From the NCBI GenBank assembly GCA_024698805.1, contig JAILQT010000025.1:1-49943 (forward strand): 49,943 nucleotides of DNA. Direction: 5' to 3'. The first letter of the stretch is position 1. Each line of letters opens with the position of its first letter. Source of the DNA: Solobacterium sp. (lineage in GTDB: Bacteria; Bacillota_I; Bacilli_A; Erysipelotrichales; Erysipelotrichaceae). Positions 1 to 4,675 of this stretch are shown here, one piece after another. Position numbers and translations under genes: made by a program. Below the pieces are notes generated by a model, which made no database searches, had not been told where the DNA came from, and worked only from the letters and a program-made list of their open reading frames with translations.

Positions 1-2192
1 TCGGCTTCCCCGTATGTGCCCCAGTTGTTCTGCACGGACTGGAGCGGTGCATACATCCGGTCGAGCCAGGCGCAGACAAGTGCAGGATCCTGTGCAGCAG
101 CTGTAACGACGCAGCGTCCGCGGTCGAAACCGGAAGTGAAGGAGCCGTTGTTCGGGGTGATATTCGTGACATCCGCCGCAAGTGCAGGCAGCGGGATCCA
201 GCCGTTTCCGGCGATCAGGTCGTCCGTACTGACCTGTACGACGTTTGCTATATCCCATGTGAAGCATACGCCGTAGCGCCCGGCTTTGCCTTTCGCCACA
301 TAAGCTGACCATTCCTGTGTGAACGCTTCCGGGTCGATCAGGTTCTGTGCATAGAGTTTATGGAGCCATTCCAGCCCCTTTCGGAAACCTTCCTGTGAAG
401 CCGTGCAGATAACATTCCTGTCATCGTTAACAGCCAGATGTCTGAGTTCATCCGCATCGCCGATGCCTTCGCCGAAACCGTTGACCAGGATCATCGGATC
501 CTGTCCGCCGTCGTTCATGATGCAGGACATCGGGATGACGCTTCCGCTGATATTGAATTCCCTCTGGAGTGCAGCGGCGTTGTCGCGGAATGCGATCAGC
601 ACCTGTTCGAATTCATCGGCAGTCTCCGGCACTTCAAGGCCGAGATAGTCGAGCCAGGCCTTGTTGATATAGGGCATGTTGTCGACAGTCTGGATCGCAG
701 TCCTTTCATAGCCGAGCTGCTCGATCCACGGCAGGGCCCAGATGTGCCCGTCCGCATCTTCCATCAGTTTCCTGTAATCCGGCACCTGTTCCAGGATCTT
801 CTTCAGGTTCGGCATGTACGCATCGATATAATCTTCGAGATTGAGGATGACCCCCTGTTTTGCATATTTCAGCAGGTCTGCATCGCCGAAGCCTGCATTG
901 AAAACAAATTCGGGAAGTGTCCTGATACTGGACATTTCGAGAGCGATCCTGTCGGCCCACTGGGAAGCCTGGTATGCATTCCATTCAACATGGACATTCG
1001 TCTCTTCTTCCAGACGCCGGAAGATCGTACGGTTGTTCGGTTCGGGTTCGGTTCCGTCAGGATAGTATGTCATGCCCCGGATCACAGCAGTCTGCGCAAG
1101 CGGGAAGCTGTAATAAGCGTTGGCTTCACCCGCATTTCCTGACTGTGTGCTGCTTTCATCAGGTCCTGTTACCGGTGTTTCTTCCACAGCTGATTCAGTC
1201 CCGGGCCCAGCCTCCTGTTCGGTCCGTGCCGCTGTCTCTTCCATGGCTTCCGTGATCCCGGAGACAGGTTCTTTCGGATTCCCGTTCAGCCGGGGGAACA
1301 GCACTGCCGCCCCGACGCAGACTGCGAGCGCAGCGACTGCCGCGACCAGTCCCGTTTTTTTCGGGGAAGATGCTTTCTCTTCCTGTGTCCGGACCGGGAT
1401 CTTCCCGGTCCTGCCGGAAAGCGGATCTTCCTGATCCGGCCTGTTCAGGTCTTCCAGAAGCTCTTTCGCACTCTGGTACCTGTCCTTCGGATCGAACTTC
1501 GTACACTTTTCAATGATCTTTTCCAGTTTTTCGGAGATCTGCGGATTCAGCTCCCGGACAGGTATGTAACCGTACGGTTGTTCATGCGGGTTCTTGCCTG
1601 TAGCGAGATAATGCATCGTCATGCCGAGCGAATAGATATCCGTCCTGCCGTCCGACTGTGCCGCACCGAACTGCTCCGGCGCCGCAAAGCCTATGGTTCC
1701 CAGATACATCGTATCATTGGAAGCCGTCTGTTTGAACTCACGTGCAATCCCGAAATCGATCAGCACCAGCCTGCCGTTCTTCTGCAGAATGACATTGGAA
1801 GGCTTCATGTCCCTGTAGATGATCGGGGGTATCCTGCTGTGCAGGTACTGCAGGACTTCCGCCAGTGTGATGAACCATCCGGTGATGGTTTTTTCCGGGA
1901 TCACCTTTTCCCGTCTGATGACCTGCTGGAGGTCTTCTCCCTCGATATAATCCATGACGATATATACAAGCCTGCTGTCTTCAAAAACATCAATCACCCG
2001 GACAAGGTTCGGGTGATTGAGTTTCTTCAGGATACTGACTTCCGCAAGCAGGTCGCCGGCCTGGTCCTTCCTGACCGACTTGATCGCGACCGGTGTGTCC
2101 AGACGGATATGCCTCGCCTTGAAAACGGTGGACATCCCGCCCTTGCCGATATAGTCAAGGATCTCGTATGTATTATTCAGTATCTGTGCCAT
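1..2192 (-). CDS. Membrane-anchored Ser/Thr protein kinase fused to extracellular family-1-type solute-binding domain (C-terminus runs off left edge)
   Basis: Manual minus-strand translation from ATG at 2192: MAQILNNTYEILDYIGKGGMSTVFKARHIRLDTPVAIKSV...YRDMKPSNVIL...LIDFG...GFAAPEQFG...DIYSLGM; then TM KKTGLVAAVAALAVCVGAAVLF at about 1300-1370; then SBP-like ...DGHIWALPWIEQLGYERTAIQ... Same frame checked at about 1638, 1320, 723 and 3; no stop before window edge. Not in the ORF track because it has no stop in the window. Confidence 0.9.
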   Translation of the reverse strand, partial: MAQILNNTYEILDYIGKGGMSTVFKARHIRLDTPVAIKSVRKDQAGDLLAEVSILKKLNHPNLVRVIDVFEDSRLVYIVMDYIEGEDLQQVIRREKVIPEKTITGWFITLAEVLQYLHSRIPPIIYRDMKPSNVILQKNGRLVLIDFGIAREFKQTASNDTMYLGTIGFAAPEQFGAAQSDGRTDIYSLGMTMHYLATGKNPHEQPYGYIPVRELNPQISEKLEKIIEKCTKFDPKDRYQSAKELLEDLNRPDQEDPLSGRTGKIPVRTQEEKASSPKKTGLVAAVAALAVCVGAAVLFPRLNGNPKEPVSGITEAMEETAARTEQEAGPGTESAVEETPVTGPDESSTQSGNAGEANAYYSFPLAQTAVIRGMTYYPDGTEPEPNNRTIFRRLEEETNVHVEWNAYQASQWADRIALEMSSIRTLPEFVFNAGFGDADLLKYAKQGVILNLEDYIDAYMPNLKKILEQVPDYRKLMEDADGHIWALPWIEQLGYERTAIQTVDNMPYINKAWLDYLGLEVPETADEFEQVLIAFRDNAAALQREFNISGSVIPMSCIMNDGGQDPMILVNGFGEGIGDADELRHLAVNDDRNVICTASQEGFRKGLEWLHKLYAQNLIDPEAFTQEWSAYVAKGKAGRYGVCFTWDIANVVQVSTDDLIAGNGWIPLPALAADVTNITPNNGSFTSGFDRGRCVVTAAAQDPALVCAWLDRMYAPLQSVQNNWGTYGEA

Positions 2193-4675: not shown

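Follow-up and report, generated by a model that had tools for sequence, protein, structure and literature searches.

Adjacent putative single-pass sensors in Solobacterium sp.: a receptor kinase with a transporter-type, probably fructan-binding ectodomain beside a tethered sigma-like protein

At one end of a contig of Solobacterium sp. two genes lie side by side on the same strand. Gene A codes for a sigma-like protein with WG repeats, gene B for a protein kinase carrying a solute-binding protein (SBP) as its outer part. Do the two form a signalling system of their own, and what does the kinase sense? The window, i.e. the whole stretch of 49,943 nucleotides analysed, is contig C135 of a metagenome-assembled genome (2.8 Mb, fragmented, 91% complete, 5.7% contamination). 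We consider it probable that the genes encode adjacent sensors with one transmembrane (TM) helix each, namely a receptor kinase with a captured SBP, belonging to a set of 14, and a tethered sigma-like neighbour. The locus comprises the following features:

2201 to 4675, minus strand: gene A, ECF-sigma-like domain, TM helix, PTPEP linker and WG ectodomain (824 amino acids plus stop)
3 to 2192, minus strand: gene B, Ser/Thr kinase, TM helix, linker and FusA-like SBP (730 amino acids in the window)
2193 to 2200: intergenic gap of 8 nt from the gene A stop to the gene B start, without Shine-Dalgarno sequence
4684 to 4690, minus strand: Shine-Dalgarno sequence GGGGGAA of gene A, 8 nt before the ATG (read from the sequence)
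4880 to 4905, minus strand: intrinsic terminator of the upstream nucleoside-type ABC operon (11-bp stem)
1 to 427: overlap with the end of contig C112, onto which gene B continues

Gene A starts with the ATG at 4675 and stops at 2201-2203; the ATG of gene B is located at 2192. These coordinates and the 8-nt spacing on one strand had been given correctly by a sequence-only reading of the locus. The terminator which that reading placed upstream of the pair is real, with a folding z-score of -3.5 for the hairpin at 4905-4880 on the strand of the genes, and the layout ascribed to both proteins (signalling domain, one TM helix, linker, ectodomain) was borne out. Co-translation had been proposed as well. 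No Shine-Dalgarno sequence was detected in the 20 nt upstream of the gene B ATG, whereas gene A has a good one; thus coupled translation from gene A to gene B is plausible. Together with the short gap and the terminator, this suggests that both genes are probably co-transcribed. Further upstream on the same strand (window positions 4910-9746), a PnrA/BMP-type SBP, an ABC ATPase and two permeases make up a nucleoside-type importer.

Three parts of gene B were delimited:

1452 to 2168, minus strand: kinase domain with G-loop, VAIK, YRDMKPSN, DFG and APE all present (Pfam Pkinase; alignment of 14 paralogues)
1296 to 1355, minus strand: single TM helix, predicted from the sequence
3 to 1118, minus strand: SBP ectodomain of the FusA type (fructo-oligosaccharide-binding family)

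The Pkinase profile matched gene B with 178 bits. The catalytic residues K38, D128, N133 and DFG 146-148 identify a Hanks-type (PknB/PrkC-like) Ser/Thr kinase, and all catalytic motifs are intact and kept in the alignment of the 14 paralogues. Two described families were rejected for gene B. The model of the PASTA kinases (Stk1/PknB, NF033483) reached 222 bits against a cut-off of 450 and covered the kinase part only; that of the StpK7/MSMEG_1200 SBP-kinase family (NF052427) reached 106.8 bits against 900, restricted to residues 8-331.

The ectodomain was matched by SBP_bac_1 with 27.3 bits (cut-off 26). The structures 5g5y, 5g60 and 5g62 were found at E ~1e-81, with residues 381-729 aligned to 5g62, and the homology to FusA-type SBPs thus extends across the domain. 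FusA is a fructo-oligosaccharide SBP; 5g5y is the apo form and 5g60 the nystose complex (PMC5287374). Stand-alone SBP lipoproteins with 66-75% identity to residues 359-730 were encoded in 28 of 70 genomes of the genus. Their operons have the order permease-permease-SBP-GH32, the SBP following the permeases and preceding a GH32 enzyme at the ten loci read, and nearly every one of these also carries a divergently oriented LacI regulator. Fructans and sucrose are substrates of GH32 enzymes. Since the GH32 neighbours in relatives and the structural homologue are two independent lines of evidence for a fructo-oligosaccharide as ligand, the ectodomain of gene B probably senses such a compound, as judged from its sequence. 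The earlier idea of ligand-gated kinase signalling was strengthened by this traceability to a fructan transporter SBP.

A second close copy of the SBP was not found in this genome (next best 30%). For the permease and GH32 partners of the congeners the best matches were 42% and up to 43%, the permease with 42% being located in a different operon. Thus, an SBP that once served transport appears to have taken on a sensing role; the main caveat is an assembly gap, since a stand-alone SBP could be missing from a fragmented metagenome-assembled genome. The probably fructan-binding domain is fused to a kinase here, and in related species it serves sugar uptake only. In the tree, the fused copy is placed among or beside the congeneric SBPs and has the longest branch (0.49 vs. 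a median of 0.079), which is consistent with a changed constraint; its specificity may have shifted.

Gene B is open at the contig end. Contig C112 supplies 148 further residues, giving about 878 amino acids in total. The end of C112 shares 92.5% identity with window positions 1-427, and for about 60 bases at either end the two agree exactly, a pattern that an assembly bubble of two strain variants would produce. Between the two co-assembled ectodomain variants dN/dS was 0.12 (141 codons). An origin of the kinase-SBP fusion by chimeric assembly is unlikely: the kinase cassette was also found, its frames intact, on eight further contigs.

The kinase domain of gene B is 67-73% identical to those of 13 paralogues in the same genome, arranged as singletons or tandem arrays. 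The cassette therefore exists in 14 copies, whose outer parts represent four SBP families or are other ectodomains. Above the Pfam cut-offs, SBP_bac_5 and SBP_bac_3 (three other paralogues each) and Peripla_BP_4 (one) were detected. One more paralogue, truncated by a contig end, has an SBP_bac_1-like ectodomain, four kinases on contig C89 carry Fn3-like or zinc-ribbon-like ectodomains, and RCC1 repeats form that of another paralogue. For three further paralogue ectodomains, stand-alone relatives exist in the genus with 38-56% identity. A kinase this close (E 1e-60) was found in only ten of 272 genomes of the family, the present one included; in those of the ten that were read, the ectodomains were TPR-like or other, non-SBP domains. 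In named genomes, the 79 nearest kinases carried TPR repeats more often than any other ectodomain; none of the 25 commonest Pfam families, out of 39 matched, was an SBP family. We read the 14 kinases as a lineage-specific receptor-kinase set which arose by capture of transporter SBPs.

The four kinases of C89 (L029:2503-9696, G000) stand in tandem, and their mosaic kinase domains point to gene conversion. The third one is 93% identical to the second over its first 240 bases, then 93-100% identical to the fourth, then again similar to the second. Such mosaics suggest recombination between copies, which would offer a ready route to sensor exchange. Two other kinase loci of the genome were noted. 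A degenerate kinase with YRKMKPSK and without DFG (L030:3851-4585, contig C40) is flanked by an Opp-type transporter operon and a kinase-SBP gene; a canonical module of kinase, PP2C and FHA (L033:14614-17796, contig C16) is likely the housekeeping Ser/Thr signalling locus.

Gene A was divided as follows:

4232 to 4675, minus strand: ECF sigma-like domain (sigma2-like and sigma4-like), residues 1-148 (AlphaFold2, Foldseek)
4541 to 4564, minus strand: region 2.2 position, SDRNALMR where relatives carry DAQDxVQ (alignment)
3998 to 4063, minus strand: predicted single TM helix (hydropathy and sequence)
3833 to 3952, minus strand: low-complexity PTPEP linker (sequence)
2876 to 3808, minus strand: WG-repeat ectodomain, beta-propeller-like model (Pfam WG)

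Sigma70_r4_2 scored 22.1 bits on gene A, under its cut-off of 25.7, and for sigma region 2 no Pfam match was obtained. By the Pfam definition (Sigma70_r2 and r4), gene A was thus rejected as an ECF sigma factor, while several of its relatives pass. The AlphaFold2 model of the domain has a pLDDT of 82.6, and the best Foldseek matches were all ECF sigma factors (SigW, AlgU, SigK, BldN); the label sigma-like, assigned previously, is right at the level of the fold, although the sequence profiles stay under the cut-off. Region 2.2 reads DRNA. Several tethered relatives retain DAQD as well as regions 2 and 4 above the Pfam cut-offs, and gene A has lost the usual polymerase-contact motif. Since this motif is decayed, a role as tethered DNA-binding or sequestering module is likelier than that of an ordinary sigma factor. 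A close homologue of the sigma-like domain was not found in the 70 genomes of the genus.

The WG score of gene A was 49 bits (cut-off 25.6), and in a search with the whole protein against the same 70 genomes its WG ectodomain was about 25-36% identical to secreted or lipoprotein WG proteins. The beta-propeller-like model has weak TM scores, with the last 220 residues poorly modelled, and its structure comparison gave no hint of function. Tethered proteins built from an ECF-sigma domain, a TM helix and a variable ectodomain were found across the genus and family; in some genera, each genome has at least 13 of them. In nine genomes of the family (G079-G087; loci L301, L303, L304, L308, L310, L311, L313, L314 and L317) this class is expanded. 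Most of them encode 13 or more ECF-sigma proteins in which a C-terminal TM helix leads to a short ectodomain, and first-look candidates number up to 103 in one genome. This expansion is large and apparently undescribed. In another genome (G005, L148:2436-16594 and L157:4638-9090), ECF-sigma/TM/WG genes form tandem arrays in which the sigma domains are nearly identical but the ectodomains differ, a situation that parallels the kinase arrays.

A kinase/sigma signalling system had been suggested for the two genes, with conservation of the pair in other genomes named as its test. Applied to the 70 genomes of the genus and to the gene neighbourhoods, this test came out negative: the pairing was seen with one of the 14 kinase paralogues and at none of about 17 other tethered-ECF loci inspected. 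The other 13 kinases have different genes upstream, and their unrelated neighbours include LRR_5, TROVE, metallo-beta-lactamase-like, Opp ATPase and HipA-like genes. From about 14 kinases, at least five tethered sigma-like genes and about 2,600 genes it was roughly estimated that a sigma-like gene would stand directly upstream of some kinase by chance in a few per cent of cases; thus adjacency alone is weak evidence. We therefore regard as unlikely a dedicated two-gene system, similar to STK/ECF43 but tethered, in which the SBP ligand would activate the kinase and phosphorylation of the sigma-like domain or its linker would alter transcription. It would agree with the 8-nt spacing, the lack of a Shine-Dalgarno sequence before the kinase gene and the established control of ECF43 sigma factors by STKs (PMC13147305, PMC8999054). 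A looser co-location on C89 also fits: about 8.8 kb separate a sigma-like/WG gene, with a PP2C nearby, from the four kinases downstream of it. However, a pair seen once, unrelated genes at 13 kinases, tethered loci without an adjoining kinase of this type, and DRNA in place of an ECF43-style Thr/Ser switch argue against it. The bolder version, that a fructan-gated kinase acts on a tethered pseudo-sigma from its own operon and that the 14 kinases feed nutrient signals into such outputs, is similarly doubtful. On C89, the PP2C-type phosphatase gene (L028:360-1319) is situated about 1.9 kb upstream of the sigma-like/WG paralogue (3225-5735), with the four kinases further downstream.

Two other explanations were considered, both rather improbable. 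The kinase-SBP might double as binding protein of an ABC importer, delivering sugar and reporting transport activity. Its ectodomain closely resembles a transporter SBP, and other lipoprotein-type permeases and GH32-like genes are present in the genome, but the permease partner of the congeners was not found here beyond the 42% match elsewhere, and no permease lies downstream of gene B, where DUF362 and pheS/pheT are encoded instead. Alternatively, the genes could be incidental or decaying neighbours, gene A being degenerate and perhaps non-functional and the kinase-SBP a young fusion under weak selection. The sub-threshold sigma-like region, its motif loss, the absence of a close homologue and the long branch of the fused SBP would suit decay; the long intact frames, the low dN/dS in the overlap, the good Shine-Dalgarno sequence of gene A and the confident fold speak against it.

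For the preferred reading of two adjacent sensors we infer the ligand, activation and targets of gene B as follows. Gene B would be an active PknB/PrkC-type receptor kinase with a captured transporter SBP as its outer part. A fructo-oligosaccharide or similar fructan may bind between the SBP lobes and change the shape or dimerisation of the ectodomain. This would activate the cytoplasmic kinase, which would then phosphorylate cytoplasmic targets. The 14 kinases would share one kinase-TM cassette, their outsides differing probably by fusion and recombination. Gene A would be the tethered module described above; the genes stand side by side, and an action of one on the other is no part of the proposal.

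To our knowledge, few bacterial Ser/Thr kinases have an assigned stimulus. As the ectodomain of gene B can be traced to a transporter protein, one relative of which binds sugar and has a known structure, the ligand is directly testable. Furthermore, with one cassette and exchanged sensors, the 14 paralogues amount to a natural experiment in the acquisition of new inputs by receptor kinases. A separate question is raised by the tethered ECF-like class, of which several genera of the family have many members: by what mechanism does a sigma domain act while anchored in the membrane?

Kinase and SBP in one polypeptide were described for MSMEG_1200 (StpK7) and some 260 InterPro entries, and SBP kinases are known chiefly in actinobacteria (PMC6069109). 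As in MSMEG_1200 and the GlnH-GlnX-PknG pathway, a solute-binding domain would act in gene B as nutrient sensor of a Ser/Thr kinase. Unlike the actinobacterial SBP kinases, 14 paralogues of one genome, clostridial-type to judge by the named relatives of its kinases, share a cassette here and carry four SBP families, with a fructan transporter as the traceable origin of one of them. Over the whole of its part in the window, the ectodomain of gene B resembles FusA of Streptococcus pneumoniae (PDB 5g5y, 5g60), but FusA serves an ABC importer, whereas the gene B domain is joined to a kinase.

In ECF43 (EcfP/PknT, EcfK/PknS), too, an ECF-like gene has a transmembrane Hanks-type kinase gene next to it. 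What defines this group is a Thr/Ser switch that replaces the DxxD motif in region 2.2 (PMC13147305), and the kinase pairing is its hallmark; here the pairing is singular and the protein is membrane-tethered. With DRNA, no such switch and no conserved co-occurrence with a kinase, gene A was rejected as a member. ECF sigma factors with C-terminal membrane extensions are known from ECF52 (SCO4117) and IutY (PMC5826349, PMC8999054). Like these, with their sugar-binding-type or sensory ectodomains, gene A has a TM helix, a proline-rich linker and an ectodomain after its sigma domain. ECF52 proteins, reported only from Actinobacteria, possess a zinc finger between sigma domain and TM helix (PMC5826349). 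In contrast, gene A has a WG ectodomain and lacks a Cys-rich motif, C75 being the only Cys before the TM helix; membership in ECF52 was rejected. By their sequences, neither gene A nor gene B is a member of the named families of SBP kinases and tethered ECF sigma factors. Three points are distinctive: a fructan SBP whose capture can be traced, the many exchanged sensors on one cassette within a single genome, and the tethered ECF-like class.
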